In this document: positions 2,040 through 7,962 of the stretch, in pieces
Layout of the letters: each line of letters starts with the position of its first letter
Position numbering within the stretch: position 1 is the stretch's first letter
Source of the DNA: Candidatus Uhrbacteria bacterium
GTDB taxonomy: Bacteria > Patescibacteriota > Patescibacteriia > 2-12-FULL-60-25
NCBI GenBank assembly: GCA_016203535.1
Contig: JACQMO010000027.1
Coordinates: 1-34,640, forward strand
DNA length: 34,640 nucleotides
Reading direction: 5' to 3'
Program-made: the position numbers and the translations under genes
Notes under the pieces: model-generated
What the model was told of the DNA's origin: nothing
Seen by the model: only the letters and a program-made list of their open reading frames with translations
Databases searched by the model: none

Positions 2040-2467
2040 CAGGTTGCGCGGCTCTTTGCGGCCAGGAGCGTCTGCGCGAGCGTCTGGTCCTTCCCGTGGA
2101 GCTCCATGAGGAACATGCGCTCGATGATCTTCCCGTTCTTCCGGCCCAGCCCGTCCTTGGTATACCGGGTGGGGTCGAGTTGAGTCAGGAAGGCGATCAT
2201 CGCGCTCCTGCGGCCCGCTTCGTCTGCAACCCACTCCGCGTGGAGGAGCAGACGCCCGAGCGCGCGGAGGGCGTCGAGCGGGATGTTCAGGTCGGCCGGG
2301 ATCTTCTTCGATTCCAACTGGGCGAGCAGGACCAGGCGTTCGGCCGCGTCCTCTTCGCTCTCTGTCTCCGCGGGTGGAGGTTCCGGCGGGTCGGGCGGCT
2401 CGGAGCCGTTCGATGGCGCGGGCGGAGCGCTCTGAACCGACGGGGTCAGCTCAGGCGCAACTGCGCT
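2039..2467 (-). CDS. -1 frame extension of paralog A: acidic/proline linker plus C-terminal domain
   Basis: This frame is entered from the 0-frame ORF by a -1 slip on C CCA AAA (2473-2467) and runs 142 codons to TGA at 2041-2039, giving a 429-aa fusion. The first ~45 residues are a P/E/S-rich linker. The last ~97 form a domain (EWVADEAGRRSAMIAFL, DPTRY, RMFLMEL) alignable with the end of paralog C (RWLVDEERLRRAIVSTL, KPDTY, DVFLAEL). The linker is coding-like well upstream of the only plausible internal starts (for example TTG at 2317), there is no SD there, and the stop abuts the terminator. I infer it is made mainly by frameshifting. Independent internal initiation is the alternative. Function is unknown. 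Confidence 0.8.
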   Translation of the reverse strand, partial: SAVAPELTPSVQSAPPAPSNGSEPPDPPEPPPAETESEEDAAERLVLLAQLESKKIPADLNIPLDALRALGRLLLHAEWVADEAGRRSAMIAFLTQLDPTRYTKDGLGRKNGKIIERMFLMELHGKDQTLAQTLLAAKSRAT

Positions 2468-2473
2468 TTTGGG
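2427..2473 (-). promoter_or_regulatory. Programmed -1 ribosomal frameshift signal of paralog A
   Basis: In the 0 frame the codons are GCC CCA AAA GCG, containing the slippery heptamer C CCA AAA (X XXY YYZ) at 2473-2467. After an 8-nt spacer comes a stem: GCGC (2458-2455) pairs with GCGC (2430-2427), CTGA (2454-2451) pairs with TCAG (2435-2432) across a bulged A (2431), and ACC (2446-2444) pairs with GGT (2438-2436) around a 5-nt loop. A purine-rich GAGGG sits 6 nt upstream of the heptamer. The spacing and layout match known bacterial -1 signals such as dnaX, and paralog C repeats them. Confidence 0.85.
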
Positions 2474-3327
2474 GCGATGCCCTCGCCGTTCGGCGCGTCG
2501 CTCGCCGTGGCTTCGGCAGGCGCCGCCGACTCCGCGTCGTCACCGCCCTCTTCCTCGGGGAGGTCCTCGTCGTCGGAGGAATCGGTCAGCTCGAGCACGG
2601 GCTCGGCGGGCGGCGGGGGTTCGATGAACCCGTGCGCCTGGGCGACCTTGGGGCCGATGACGTTCTCCCAGATGTGGTCCAGCGGGATGTGCTCGACGAA
2701 CACCGATGCCGGCGTCGTTTCGAGCAGATCGCGGTCCGCGTAGGACCCCTTCTGCCGCCCGGCGGTGACCGTCGCGCGCAGGAGCTTGGCGAGCTCCGTG
2801 TTGGGGAAGCGAGACGCGATGGTATCGAACCCCACCCCGTCCACGATGTCCTGGTGCGTCACGAGACCGTTGGCGAGCGCGCACTCCAGCATGAACTGGA
2901 GGTGCTGCTTGCTGCGGGCCGGGTTCTTCGACACCGCGTCCGGCTTCCAGAAGCCGGACTCCGTGTGGTAGTTCCAGAGGAGCAGGATCGGCAGGAACAG
3001 GACGCGATCGTCCGGATGGATGTGCGCGACGATCTTCGCGGCCGTATCCTCACGAACCTCGAGCGCGAGCAGGAGCAGCGTCGCGGCGTCCTCGGCGCGG
3101 GCCCGCAGCGCGACCTCCTCCATGAGGTTCGTCGTCGGGCAGAGGATGCGTGCGCGCAGCTTCGGTTCGTTCTTGAGCCCCTCCATGATGATGAGGGGCG
3201 AGAAGTTCCTCACGAAGTCGTAGTCGTCACGGATCCCGATGTCGAGCCCGTGGACGATGACCTCCGAGAGGAACCGCTGTCGACCTTCCGGCAGGTTGGA
3301 TTTGAACGTTTGTCCAGCGTCACTCAT
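2446..3327 (-). CDS. Paralog A, 0-frame product: helical protein of unknown function
   Basis: A 293-aa ORF starting at ATG 3327 behind the SD GGAGGG. Residues 1-240 form a mostly helical domain shared with the next two genes (landmarks: LIIMEGL, KLRARI, ESGFW, VEHIPLDHIWENVI). Residues 241-286 are an acidic, proline/alanine-rich linker. After the heptamer at codons 285-287 the 0 frame reads only six more codons (AQLRLS) and stops at TGA inside the downstream stem. I do not recognise the family. There is no signal peptide or membrane segment, so it is probably cytoplasmic. It has its own promoter (3393-3421). It is likely the short form of a short/long pair; the long form adds the domain encoded at 2467-2039. 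Confidence 0.88.
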   Translation of the reverse strand: MSDAGQTFKSNLPEGRQRFLSEVIVHGLDIGIRDDYDFVRNFSPLIIMEGLKNEPKLRARILCPTTNLMEEVALRARAEDAATLLLLALEVREDTAAKIVAHIHPDDRVLFLPILLLWNYHTESGFWKPDAVSKNPARSKQHLQFMLECALANGLVTHQDIVDGVGFDTIASRFPNTELAKLLRATVTAGRQKGSYADRDLLETTPASVFVEHIPLDHIWENVIGPKVAQAHGFIEPPPPAEPVLELTDSSDDEDLPEEEGGDDAESAAPAEATASDAPNGEGIAPKAQLRLS

Positions 3328-3631: not shown

Positions 3632-4357
3632 TCAACGCATGCCCTTCAAGCTCGGGGGCGGCCGAAGGGATTGCGGCGGGAGCTCGGTGATGAGCCCGTG
3701 CGCGAAGGCGATCCGCGGCGCGATGACCTTCCTCCAAAGCGCGTTGATCGGGTAGATCTGGATGAACGCGCGGAAGGTGACTTGGTTGAAAAAGTCCAAG
3801 GCGGTGTAGCACTCACCGCGGCGGCCGCGCGTGACCGTCTCGCGAACGACTCCGGCCATCTTTTTCCGGAAATGGTTCGCGATGACGTCGTACCCGATGT
3901 GTCCCAGGACTTCCTCGGCCGTGACCACGTCGTGGAATATAGCCCGCTCGAGCAAAACGGCCATGTAGTCGAGAACGCGTTGCTGGTATTCCCGGTCGCC
4001 TTTGAGCTCCCAGAAACCGCTCTCGGTGATGAAGGACCAGACGTCGCGCTTCTCGAAGAGATGCGCGCCTTGTGCAGGATCGATGAGTTGTACTACGGCG
4101 TCGGGGGTCGTGATCCCGACGTCGAGCGCGATCTGAAGGATGTCCGCGCAAGATTCCGGCGCGAGCAGGAACGCGATGTGCTCGTTCATTCCGGTGAGCG
4201 CGGTCACGATGCGCGACCGCAATTTCGGATGTTCGCAGAACCCGCGCATGATCATTTGCGGCGTGATCACCGAAAGGAAATGCTCGGGATCCAGGATCCG
4301 CTTTCGGAACCCCTCCGTCAGCAGGTCCTGGAGAAACCGTTCGATCGCTTCATTCAT
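3632..4357 (-). CDS. Paralog B: helical protein of unknown function, no frameshift extension
   Basis: 241 aa from ATG 4357, preceded by AAGGAGGGTAC, which decides this start over upstream in-frame codons. The whole protein aligns with the N-terminal domain of paralogs A and C. Shared blocks are MIMRGF, KLRSRI, ALTGMNEHIAFLL, TESGFW and AFIQIYPINALWRKVI; the last matches A at VFVEHIPLDHIWENVI. The family is unrecognised and the protein is soluble by appearance. It ends about 10 residues after the shared domain with a short proline-rich tail. It has no CCCAAAA heptamer, no linker and no C-terminal domain, and a terminator follows within 20 nt, so it is a natural counterpart of the short forms of A and C. 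Confidence 0.88.
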   Translation of the reverse strand: MNEAIERFLQDLLTEGFRKRILDPEHFLSVITPQMIMRGFCEHPKLRSRIVTALTGMNEHIAFLLAPESCADILQIALDVGITTPDAVVQLIDPAQGAHLFEKRDVWSFITESGFWELKGDREYQQRVLDYMAVLLERAIFHDVVTAEEVLGHIGYDVIANHFRKKMAGVVRETVTRGRRGECYTALDFFNQVTFRAFIQIYPINALWRKVIAPRIAFAHGLITELPPQSLRPPPSLKGMR

Positions 4358-4484: not shown

Positions 4485-5159
4485 TTATCGGGATGACACC
4501 GGACGCCGCGGGGGCGCCGGTCGTGACGGCGGGGATTCCCGGCGAAGACGGTCCGCCACGGCCATGAGCGCGGGCGTAATCGCCAGTTCGGCGAGGAACA
4601 CGTCGCAGAGCTCCGGAAGTTCGGTGGTTTTCCAGGGGCCGTCCGACCCGTAGGTGTCGGGCTTGATCCGTTGGAGCGTGGAGACGATGGCTCTTCGGAG
4701 GCGTTCCTCGTCCACGAGCCACCGGCCTTCGAGCATGAGGGTCTTCAGATCGCCGGCTTCCTCCTCGGTCGTTTCGTCGGAGAACTGGAGCCCCAACTCG
4801 TCCTCGATCTGGATGAGGTAGTTGAACGCAATGAGGGACGATCCGGATGACCTCGGGGCGTCCGGCGGATCGGTGATGGGCTTGCCGCGGGCCGCGTCGA
4901 ACGCGCTGTCCGGAATGCGCGGGACGTCCTCGCGCGGGTCGCCGTCCGGCGCGTCATAGCCCATGTCTTCGAGCTCCAGCTCTTCGAGGCCGAGACCGTC
5001 GTCGTCGACTTCTTCGGTTTCCAGTTCCGGCGTCGCCTGTGACGGAGGGGGATCGTCCGCCGGCGGACGGGTCGTCTCGCGTTCAAAGACGTCTTCAGGC
5101 GGATGCTTCGGCGCTCTGCCCGGCTCCGTGTGGAGCTCGGCGGCAGGCGCCTCTAGGCT
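4485..5159 (-). CDS. -1 frame extension of paralog C: long acidic linker plus C-terminal domain
   Basis: Entered by a -1 slip on C CCA AAA (5165-5159), this frame runs 224 codons to TAA at 4487-4485, for a 484-aa fusion with the 260 codons upstream. The first ~125 residues are a linker rich in P, E and D (for example LGLEELELED). The following ~95 contain the domain shared with paralog A (RWLVDEERLRRAIVSTL, KPDTY, DVFLAEL). A basic/proline tail closes the protein. The frame happens to be open upstream of the slip site too, but there it reads arginine-rich antisense-like noise while the 0 frame carries the conserved domain. No SD-supported internal start is evident. Function is unknown. Confidence 0.8.
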   Translation of the reverse strand, partial: SLEAPAAELHTEPGRAPKHPPEDVFERETTRPPADDPPPSQATPELETEEVDDDGLGLEELELEDMGYDAPDGDPREDVPRIPDSAFDAARGKPITDPPDAPRSSGSSLIAFNYLIQIEDELGLQFSDETTEEEAGDLKTLMLEGRWLVDEERLRRAIVSTLQRIKPDTYGSDGPWKTTELPELCDVFLAELAITPALMAVADRLRRESPPSRPAPPRRPVSSR

Positions 5160-5165
5160 TTTGGG
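5110..5165 (-). promoter_or_regulatory. Programmed -1 ribosomal frameshift signal of paralog C
   Basis: 0-frame codons TCC CCA AAA GCC TAG contain the heptamer C CCA AAA (5165-5159), and the 0-frame stop is the second codon after it. After a 7-nt spacer: GGCGC (5151-5147) pairs with GCGCC (5114-5110), CTGCC (5146-5142) pairs with GGCAG (5120-5116) with one bulged A (5115), and GCTCC (5136-5132) pairs with GGAGC (5127-5123) closing an ACAC loop. That makes 15 pairs, mostly G-C. The lower stem has the same order and bulge as in paralog A, with a compensatory change (CTGA/TCAG in A, CTGC/GCAG here). Confidence 0.87.
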
Positions 5166-5938
5166 GAGGATTTCTCGAACCCCATCGCCTGTTCGGCCGC
5201 GTCCACGATGCCGGAGAGCTCCGCGATCGGGATGTGGCGAAGGATGAGGGCGGGCGTCGCGATCGAGAGGATCCGCTTCGAACCGAACGGTTCGTTCGGC
5301 TTCACCTTTTCGAGCGCAAGCATCGCTTCGTCGATCGCCATGCGCGTTTCGACGGGGATGCGCGTCTGCCAGCTCCGGCGGTCGATGGACCACAGGAAGT
5401 CGAGCGGGGTCAGGATCGGTTTTACGTTCCCGTCCCCGCGTTCCTTCATGAGCGCATCGATGAGACGCGCGATGATTTCCTGATGCGGCTCGGCATTGTC
5501 GTTCCACGGCATGCGCTCGCGGAAGAGCCACCAGAATTTCCGCGCATCCATGTAGACGACCAGGGTCGTGATGTGGAACGCGGATTCCCAACGCTCCAGA
5601 GGGGTTGCCCCGCACTCGACCGCCAGATCGATCAGGTTCGTCTGGTCTTGCGGCGTCATGCGCCGCGCCGCCATCGGAAGGTAGCCGGTCAGCTCGGTCG
5701 TGATTTTCTGACGCAGATCCGGGCGTTCACCGAACGCGGTCATGCGCTCTGCGGTCGGGAACGCGTCGCGGAGCATCGCGGGCGACCACCAGTCGAGCGA
5801 GAGCAGCCGGAGCGTCTCGAGAAGCTCGGCGACGATCTGGAGCGCCGGTCGCGCGCTCAAATACGCGGCGCCTTCCTTGTGCAGCGCGTCATCGGTTTTC
5901 TTCGCGGCATCGGTATGAACAAGTCCGGTTGCGGCCAT
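5153..5938 (-). CDS. Paralog C, 0-frame product: helical protein of unknown function
   Basis: 261 aa from ATG 5938, chosen because GAAGGAGG sits 5 nt upstream; the in-frame GTG at 5953 overlaps that SD. It is the most diverged member of the A/B/C family but keeps the blocks DLRQKI, ELTGYLPMAARRM, a KFWWLF segment where A and B have ESGFW, and LILRHIPIAELSGIV. The ORF ends in SSPKA directly at the slippery heptamer with TAG, so unshifted ribosomes release a protein lacking the linker and C-terminal domain. It has no signal peptide and a good promoter of its own immediately after the aldolase gene. Function is unknown. Confidence 0.85.
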   Translation of the reverse strand: MAATGLVHTDAAKKTDDALHKEGAAYLSARPALQIVAELLETLRLLSLDWWSPAMLRDAFPTAERMTAFGERPDLRQKITTELTGYLPMAARRMTPQDQTNLIDLAVECGATPLERWESAFHITTLVVYMDARKFWWLFRERMPWNDNAEPHQEIIARLIDALMKERGDGNVKPILTPLDFLWSIDRRSWQTRIPVETRMAIDEAMLALEKVKPNEPFGSKRILSIATPALILRHIPIAELSGIVDAAEQAMGFEKSSPKA

Positions 5939-5986
5939 CGTGGCCTCCTTCACTGGTCAAGCTCCTTGTTGGGAATGTGCGGGTTG

Positions 5987-6015
5987 AGGATGGCAAAAAA
6001 TGTCCGTCGCGTCAA
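5987..6015 (-). promoter_or_regulatory. Promoter of paralog C
   Basis: -35 TTGACG (6015-6010), 17-nt spacer ending CATTTTTTGC, -10 CATCCT (5992-5987), and a leader of about 45 nt. It starts 12 nt after the aldolase stop. The segment TTTTTTGCCAT followed by N and CTC is nearly identical to the paralog B promoter. Confidence 0.75.
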
Positions 6016-6027
6016 GGGATGCCCGGT

Positions 6028-6948
6028 TCACCGCACACGACCGTCGCTGCCGAAGAGTTTCATTTTTTTCATCGCGACCTCGCGCATGAGGAGGGTCGCC
6101 GGTTCGAGGAGCTTGCGCGGATCGATGACCTTCGGGAGATCATCCACCGCCTCGCGGACGCCGGCCGTAAACGCCAATCTCAAATCCGTATCGATGTTGA
6201 TTTTCGCGACACCGTTCCGGATGGCGGCGCGGATGTCCGCATCGAGCACGCCGCGGGCTTCGCCGAGTTTGGCGCCATGAGACTCGGCGATTTTTTTCAC
6301 GTCTTCCCGGACGCCGGACGCGCCGTGGAGCACGAGCGGAAGCTTCACGAGACCCGCGATCCGTTTCAGCCGGGCGATGTCGAGATGGGTCTTTCCTTTG
6401 AACTTGAACGCGCCGTGCGACGTGCCGATGGCGATCGCGAGCGAATCGCAACCCGTTTTCTCCGCGAACCGGGCGGCTTCGTCCGGGTTGGTGAGCTTGG
6501 CGTCCTTCTCCTCGACGCTCACGAAATCCTCGATGCCGGCGAGCGCGCCGATCTCCGCTTCAACGGAAACGCCTTTCGCATGGGCGAGCCGGACGACGGT
6601 CTTCGTGATCGCGACGTTTTTCCGATACGGGAGCGCCGATCCGTCCATCATGACCGAGCTGTACCCGTGCGCGAGCGCCATCTTCACGTACCGGAGTTCC
6701 TTGCCGTGGTCCAGATGCATGACGACCGGGATCTTTCCGGCCGCCGCGACGCGGATCATGGCCGAAAGATACTCGATGCCGGCATAGTCGATTGCGCCCT
6801 CCGAGGTTTGCAGGATCACGGGCGACCGCATCTTCTCGGCCGCGGACATGACCGCCTTGAGGACTTCCAGATTGTTCACGTTGAACGCGGGGACGGCGTA
6901 GTTTTTTGCGCGCGCTGGGATGAGCAGTTTTTTTGCGGGGACGAGCAT
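6028..6948 (-). CDS. fba: Class II fructose-1,6-bisphosphate aldolase
   Basis: 306 aa, the normal size for class II aldolases, which cleave fructose-1,6-bisphosphate to DHAP and glyceraldehyde-3-phosphate using zinc. Visible hallmarks are YAVPAFNVNN (17-26), the catalytic Asp and zinc His in HLDHG (D80, H81), VEAEIG (130-135), zinc His H178 in GTSHGA, H208 in LHGASG, and a C-terminal phosphate-binding NIDTDLR. It follows the PfkB kinase after 9 nt and is the last gene of the sugar operon. No terminator is visible after it; the paralog C promoter follows at once. A tagatose-bisphosphate aldolase role is possible within this family but less likely given the context. Confidence 0.93.
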   Translation of the reverse strand: MLVPAKKLLIPARAKNYAVPAFNVNNLEVLKAVMSAAEKMRSPVILQTSEGAIDYAGIEYLSAMIRVAAAGKIPVVMHLDHGKELRYVKMALAHGYSSVMMDGSALPYRKNVAITKTVVRLAHAKGVSVEAEIGALAGIEDFVSVEEKDAKLTNPDEAARFAEKTGCDSLAIAIGTSHGAFKFKGKTHLDIARLKRIAGLVKLPLVLHGASGVREDVKKIAESHGAKLGEARGVLDADIRAAIRNGVAKINIDTDLRLAFTAGVREAVDDLPKVIDPRKLLEPATLLMREVAMKKMKLFGSDGRVR

Positions 6949-6957
6949 ACGGCAGGG

Positions 6958-7962
6958 TTATGAGGACATCGGATGACGCGGATGCTGGAGCATCTGGGCC
7001 TTGATCCGGGAGAATTTTTTCAGGACCTTGCGCATTTCGTTCACCGTCAGCAGACCTTTTTGCGGGCCGATACGTTGGATGACGCTCCAGCCGTTCGCCG
7101 TGCCCCATCGGAGCGCTTCATGCACATTTTTTCCCAGAAGGATGGCAGCCGTCATGCCGATCGCGAAACTGTCGCCGGCGCCCGTTTTTTCCACCGGTTG
7201 GGCCGGGAAAACGGGGATGCGGCAGTGGCTTGTTCCGTTGTAGCACTCCGCGCCGTTTGCGCCGTCCGTGACAACCACCGTTTTCGCGCCGATGGAGAGG
7301 AACCGTTCCATCATGGCGAGCGTGGTCCGGTCGCCGTCCGGGAGCAGGTGGTGCGCCTCGTCCTTGTTCAGGATGAAGAGATCGCTCCGCATGATGAGCC
7401 CCCGGATGTGCTTCAGCCCGCCCAGGACATGTGTCGTCCCCGGCTGGAACACGAAAAACGTTTTCGGATGAGCCGTCAGGTGTTTCAGCACCGCGCGGTC
7501 GAACGTCGCGTGATGGTTTCCCATGGCGGTGTAGTAGATGCACCGCGCGGTCGCGAGACGCGGAAGGTTGTATGAACGCGGTTGGAAATAGACGAACTGC
7601 GTTCGCTCGGTTTTGTAGTTCAAAATCGTGGCCTCGCTTGTCGGATGGAGTTTGTCGGTGAGGAGATAGCGGCAATCCACGCGGTCCTTCTGGAGCGCTT
7701 CGCGGGAGTGGCGTCCGGCATGGTCGTCGCCGACCCAGCTCACGAGGGCGGATTTCAATCCCAGGCGCGAGGCGCCGACCGCGGCGTTCGATGCGTTGCC
7801 GGCCGCCGGAACCTTGACGACGTGTTTCACCGGAATTTTTTCCGCGTACTCGAAGCAGAGGAGGTTCCGTTCGGTATCCAGGTGCGAGCTCCCGTTGGCC
7901 TCATCCAGCTGATAGAACACGTCGCGAAGCGATTCGCCGATCGAAATGATGTCGTAGGTCAT
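6958..7962 (-). CDS. PfkB family carbohydrate kinase in the transketolase/aldolase operon
   Basis: 334 aa. It starts MTYDIISIGESLRDVF and has the sugar-binding block PAAGNASNAAVGASRLG and the C-terminal signature KTGAGDSFAIG (catalytic Asp in GAGD, 261-264). It overlaps the coiled-coil gene upstream by 4 nt (ATGA) and lies 9 nt before the aldolase gene. Because classical ATP phosphofructokinase is often missing in Patescibacteria (general knowledge), a kinase beside aldolase could supply fructose-1,6-bisphosphate. That is only inference; ribokinase or adenosine kinase activity would fit the fold equally well. Confidence 0.88.
   Translation of the reverse strand: MTYDIISIGESLRDVFYQLDEANGSSHLDTERNLLCFEYAEKIPVKHVVKVPAAGNASNAAVGASRLGLKSALVSWVGDDHAGRHSREALQKDRVDCRYLLTDKLHPTSEATILNYKTERTQFVYFQPRSYNLPRLATARCIYYTAMGNHHATFDRAVLKHLTAHPKTFFVFQPGTTHVLGGLKHIRGLIMRSDLFILNKDEAHHLLPDGDRTTLAMMERFLSIGAKTVVVTDGANGAECYNGTSHCRIPVFPAQPVEKTGAGDSFAIGMTAAILLGKNVHEALRWGTANGWSVIQRIGPQKGLLTVNEMRKVLKKFSRIKAQMLQHPRHPMSS

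Follow-up and report, generated by a model that had tools for sequence, protein, structure and literature searches.

A putative programmed −1 ribosomal frameshift signal in two paralogous genes of a Candidatus Uhrbacteria bacterium and in their homologs

Introduction

Does the break in the reading frame of gene C, which directly follows a slippery heptamer, mark a damaged gene, or is it a programmed −1 ribosomal frameshift that would give two proteins from one mRNA? The question is raised by a contig of a Candidatus Uhrbacteria bacterium (source genome of 811 kb, 88% complete), of which a stretch of 34,640 nucleotides, here called the window, was analyzed. An earlier note had read C and its paralog A as independently diverged carriers of one frameshift signal. 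We consider it very likely (probability of about 0.93) that the sites in C and A are programmed −1 frameshift signals which set the ratio between the short and the long isoform of a lineage-specific helical protein. This reading is inferred from sequence, without ribosome profiling, proteomics or reporter data.

The C-B-A locus and its probable frameshift signals

Genes C, B and A lie on the minus strand (as do all features given below) as a tandem set of distant paralogs with 21–30% identity to A, and a strong Shine-Dalgarno sequence can be read before the start of each. Gene C starts at an ATG (5938) located 3′ of AGGAGG. Its frame-0 ORF (5153–5938), corresponding to the short isoform with an all-helical N-terminal domain, ends at position 5153 with the sequence ...TCC CCA AAA GCC TAG, in which the slippery heptamer C CCA AAA (5165–5159) is in the X_XXY_YYZ phase and the TAG (5153–5155) lies one codon past the slip. 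The −1 frame is open from the heptamer for 226 codons, down to 4485 (4485–5165), and codes, as seen from sequence and alignment, for a disordered linker and a conserved five-helix C-terminal domain (4488–4862; structure model and profile). The heptamer is followed by a spacer of 7 nt, GCCTAGA (5152–5158), and by a putative stimulatory hairpin (5110–5151), GGCGCCTGCC...GGCAG-A-GCGCC, for which RNAfold gives 17 bp and −29.1 kcal/mol; none of 66 control positions on the same contig is equally stable.

Paralog A carries the heptamer at 2467–2473, a spacer of 8 nt and a hairpin of 14 bp with a bulged A (2427–2458), whose folding energy of −21.1 kcal/mol is matched at 6 of 66 control positions. The frame-0 ORF of A (2446–3327, short isoform) stops at a TGA 25 nt past the heptamer start, and the −1 frame is open for 144 codons, to 2039 (2039–2473); sequence, alignment and profile place in this extension a C-terminal domain of the same kind as that of C. 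Gene B (3632–4357), an A-type paralog according to sequence and clades, has no frameshift signal, heptamer, extension or C-terminal domain; slip site and domain were either lost or never present. Since the CCCAAAA heptamer by itself is not rare (three copies in the window, both strands counted), the significance of these sites rests on the combination of elements and on their conservation in homologs.

The earlier note had claimed the same heptamer in the same phase in A and C, and a change from CTGA/TCAG in A to CTGC/GCAG in C with a bulged A before the last GCGC; both claims held. Its 7-nt spacer is correct for C, with pairing in A beginning one nucleotide later, and its 15-bp stem in C had to be corrected by folding to the 17 pairs given above. 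A frame-0 stop one codon past the slip was confirmed for C and most homologs and failed for A.

Conservation of the slip site in homologs

Homologs were collected with A, C and profiles of A and C among Uhrbacteria and their relatives, the taxonomic family of the window. At the homologous place, and in the same phase, a heptamer occurs in fifteen split-frame genes from about ten genera (A and C among them); it is CCCAAAA in 14 and AAAAAAA in one (L019). The frame-0 stop is found exactly 10 nt from the heptamer start in 13 of the 15, the exceptions being A (25 nt) and L027 (13 nt). Wherever no contig end cuts it, the −1 extension comprises 144–340 codons, usually reaching the conserved five-helix domain. 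Two of the genes are incomplete: L017 is truncated at a contig end, and L037 (genome G011) covers only the latter half of a gene apparently broken over two contigs.

The heptamer carries 1.85 bits of information per base and positions +8 to +20 carry 1.24, as compared to 0.39 and 0.38 in the upstream and downstream flanks, respectively. Exact matches to CCCAAAAGNNTRRNGGCG number 10 in 41 genomes, all in members of the A/C gene family. Hits with one mismatch fall outside the family, except for L051 and L037; those outside look like chance, hits to control patterns being about as frequent. An upstream Shine-Dalgarno-like stimulator, an optional feature, is found under the definition of PMC4066793 in only 6 of the 15 elements. 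Both the slip site and the direction of the shift are phylogenetically conserved, and divergent homologs retain heptamer, spacer, stop and hairpin. The same signal at the same place in about ten genera therefore points to a real, selected device.

RNA structure downstream of the heptamer

Together with two genes of reversed polarity (L005 and L008, see below), 17 elements could be compared. A clear hairpin starting 7–8 nt past the heptamer is found in about ten (C, A, L003, L004, L015, L019, L028, L029, L005 and L008), with outer stems mostly of the GGCGYC/GRCGCC type. About seven have no convincing hairpin at the expected spacing; the fold is weak or ambiguous in L016, L017, L018, L023, L025, L027 and L037. 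Given that some relatives fold differently or weakly, conservation of the stem is poorer than that of the heptamer, the spacer and the stop. With this restriction, the frameshift reading of the earlier note is supported overall. The absence of heptamer and stem from every other genome, which would have refuted it, is not observed: 15 ordinary and 2 reversed elements are known, A and C included, mostly with a stem.

In 13 of 14 elements, the 63 nt past the heptamer fold more stably than synonymous shuffles of the −1 frame do on average (Stouffer z of −5.9 over the 14). Pairing was tested by permutation and not with a covariance model, because loop lengths vary too much. The 5′ arms pair better with their own downstream region than with those of other elements (permutation P of about 0.004), and changes of whole pairs can be seen by eye: the fifth pair of the outer stem is C-G or U-A among elements, and the fourth is A-U in L008. 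The second possible refutation, a lack of compensatory change in a larger alignment, is thus not met either. It should be kept in mind that the sequences are related, and neither the folding nor the permutation probabilities come from independent samples. A search of the whole window with curated Rfam families at gathering score returned only two tRNAs, and the frameshift element was not matched.

Clades, in-frame fusions and reversed polarity

By their N-terminal domains, the proteins divide into an A-type (10 members) and a C-type (16 members) clade, which are strongly separated and both contain slip sites; the description of A and C as independently diverged copies is therefore upheld. In the C clade, 12 of the 16 members have the slip site, and the other four (L014, L020, L022 and L024) encode the fusion in an uninterrupted frame. 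In the A clade, L005 (at 2358) and L008 (at 2436) keep heptamer and hairpin with the polarity reversed. Owing to indels, their fusion is frame 0, and it is the −1 frame that stops, after PKSL or PKR, 3–4 codons past the slip. Judged from sequence alone, a shift in these two genes would yield a short product, as in E. coli dnaX. The occurrence of both polarities in one gene family suggests that two products are selected rather than a single repaired one; we regard this as the strongest argument for such selection, an inference that depends on two genes only.

A profile search of 381 genomes sampled from the class gave no match outside the window's taxonomic family. We would not lean to either side on whether a recoding cassette inherited from the ancestor has preserved the output of two isoforms in this lineage-specific scaffold family over the whole depth of the candidate-phyla family, through the A/C duplication and through at least two indels by which default and shifted product changed places. 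If it has, selection would act on the isoform ratio, whichever frame yields which product, in genomes of ~1 Mb.

Relatives of the C N-terminal domain without slip site (L091, L092, L094 and L097) occur on MAG contigs labelled Polyangiaceae, delta proteobacterium, Myxococcales and Pseudomonadota. The GC content of these contigs is 0.63–0.71, and in three of the four the relative lies near TRAP transporter, LuxR-type or FG-GAP genes. A transfer of genes between such large-genome bacteria and Uhrbacteria is possible.

Proposed mechanism

At the level of sequence, the elements satisfy the criteria for a programmed −1 frameshift, namely a phased heptamer, a downstream structure (about 10 of 17, weak in the rest), a conserved open −1 frame and phylogenetic conservation. 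In the mechanism that we propose, CCA would occupy the P site and AAA the A site when the ribosome pauses at the hairpin. Tandem −1 slippage would then move the P-site tRNA-Pro from CCA to CCC and the A-site tRNA-Lys from AAA to AAA. The fraction of ribosomes re-paired to CCC AAA would continue as S-P-K-S-L-E-A..., and the others would terminate at the TAG. One mRNA would thus give a short isoform, consisting of the N-terminal helical domain alone, and a long isoform, in which this domain is followed by an acidic/proline-rich linker and the five-helix domain, often with a PPPLP-K/R tail.

Data from E. coli bear on this scheme. Motifs of the Y_YY.A_AA.R type are shift-prone, C_CC.A_AA.G with the IS3 pseudoknot reaches 54%, and stimulatory structures usually begin 5–8 nt downstream (PMC4066793), a range which includes the 7–8 nt found in C and A. 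On the other hand, the slip codon is AAA, whereas the strongest E. coli motifs have AAG. The role of the shift is likely to be the fixing of a ratio between two forms of a scaffold-like protein, by analogy with the tau and gamma products of dnaX; neither function nor efficiency has been tested.

Alternative explanations

The alternative that survives best, although unlikely, is that the frameshift is real and serves to reduce or control expression, with the long product merely incidental. The fast divergence of the linker and the long forms of L004 and L008, in which no five-helix domain is detectable, speak for it. Against it, the C-terminal domain is conserved in most members, in-frame fusions included, and the signal is kept by the members of reversed polarity.

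A second possibility is that two separate proteins are made: ribosomes would terminate at the TAG, and the −1 frame would be translated after re-initiation or by translational coupling. Indeed, the −1 frame offers an ATG 12 nt (L016) and a GTG 9 nt (L017) from the heptamer start. However, the nearest start codon that the −1 frame could use lies >40 nt downstream in most elements (201 nt in C), mostly without a clear Shine-Dalgarno sequence, whereas this frame is already open at the slip. Moreover, coupling would require neither heptamer nor phase nor fusion orthologs, and we consider it very unlikely. The same holds for transcriptional slippage at the A run. This explanation is favored by the A AAA AAA of L019 and by the dnaX genes of several bacteria, which are thought to use poly-A slippage (PMC3711429), yet 14 of the 15 elements have just four A, and three conserved C and a hairpin at fixed spacing would be superfluous. 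Finally, sequencing errors or the decay of a once-fused gene into pseudogenes, for which the four in-frame fusions could be cited, are all but excluded by the recurrence of the identical break at the identical place in 15 genes from independent assemblies, by a motif far more conserved than its surroundings, and by the conservation of both domains.

Protein domains

The AF2 model of the N-terminal domain of C is all-helical with a mean pLDDT of 92.8, and the domain reached by the shift is modeled as five helices (pLDDT 87.7). The profile of the latter matches in 17 of the 41 genomes (one weak match); alignment shows the domain conserved in most members, those with in-frame fusion included, and the profile does not detect it in the long forms of L004 and L008. 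The linker is disordered, acidic/proline-rich and fast-diverging. The sequences of many long forms, e.g., L016, L018, L022 and L025, show a PPPLP-K/R tail at the extreme C-terminus, also found in L006 and L009, which have no slip site; this tail may be a short interaction motif.

Sequence searches against Pfam, NCBIfam, PHROGs, PADLOC and the PDB gave no family for the A/C proteins. Two candidates were rejected: DpdD (E 1e-5, in 1 of 16 members and far under its cut-off) and Rap94 (likewise in one member). Foldseek comparisons of both domains with the PDB, and of the N-terminal domain with viral models, gave nothing significant, and no relatives of the A/C proteins were found in the viral contigs and phages searched.

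Comparison with known frameshift systems

A close parallel is dnaX, likewise a chromosomal, non-mobile gene with short and long isoforms that have the N-terminal part in common. It is known in both polarities, the shift leading to the short form or recoding being required for the long one (PMC3711429), as in the A/C family. The proteins are nevertheless unrelated (A/C have no Pfam or NCBIfam match at a curated cut-off), the A/C heptamer is CCCAAAA and not a poly-A motif, and a consistent upstream Shine-Dalgarno element is missing. The programmed frameshifting of E. coli copA (Meydan et al., 2017, cited in PMC9548414) is another case of an efficient shift in a non-mobile bacterial gene with two useful products. 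The copA slip site is of the C_CCA_AAG type. In copA the shift truncates, whereas in the A/C family it extends in 15 of 17 elements, and these proteins too are unrelated. The frameshift clusters of magnesium chelatase and DUF111 also comprise split-frame genes with some fused relatives, the shift yielding the fusion (PMC3711429); they involve other proteins, and the cassettes of the chelatase rely on A runs. Phage tail-assembly chaperones and IS3-type transposases resemble A/C in that a −1 shift adds a C-terminal extension to a set proportion of the product. A frameshift of IS3/IS1-type transposase or tail-chaperone origin was rejected, the A/C proteins matching no phage or transposase family. 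The A/C family is none of the systems compared, although it would work like dnaX, copA and the split magnesium chelatase cassettes.

A full-text search of the literature, incomplete in coverage, found no paper in which ribosomal frameshifting is connected to Patescibacteria, Uhrbacteria or the candidate phyla radiation. Known examples of −1 frameshifting in chromosomal, non-mobile bacterial genes are few, and A/C would add a deeply conserved case from Patescibacteria, whose natural variants (normal, fused, polarity-reversed and poly-A) can be used to test whether it is the signal, the long product or the ratio that selection maintains. Because gene callers would break such genes in two or cut them short, annotation is likely to miss the long isoform.

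Genomic surroundings of gene C

Assemblies often break within or near gene C, contig ends being found in G011, G017, G021, G026, G031, G034 and G037, perhaps reflecting strain-level variability. Upstream of C on the same strand lie a PfkB kinase and a class II aldolase, or the aldolase alone, in several genera (window 5153–7962, L090, L093, L096 and L098). No metabolic link of C is implied by these neighbours; their recurrence makes it likely that the C genes at these loci are orthologs in place.
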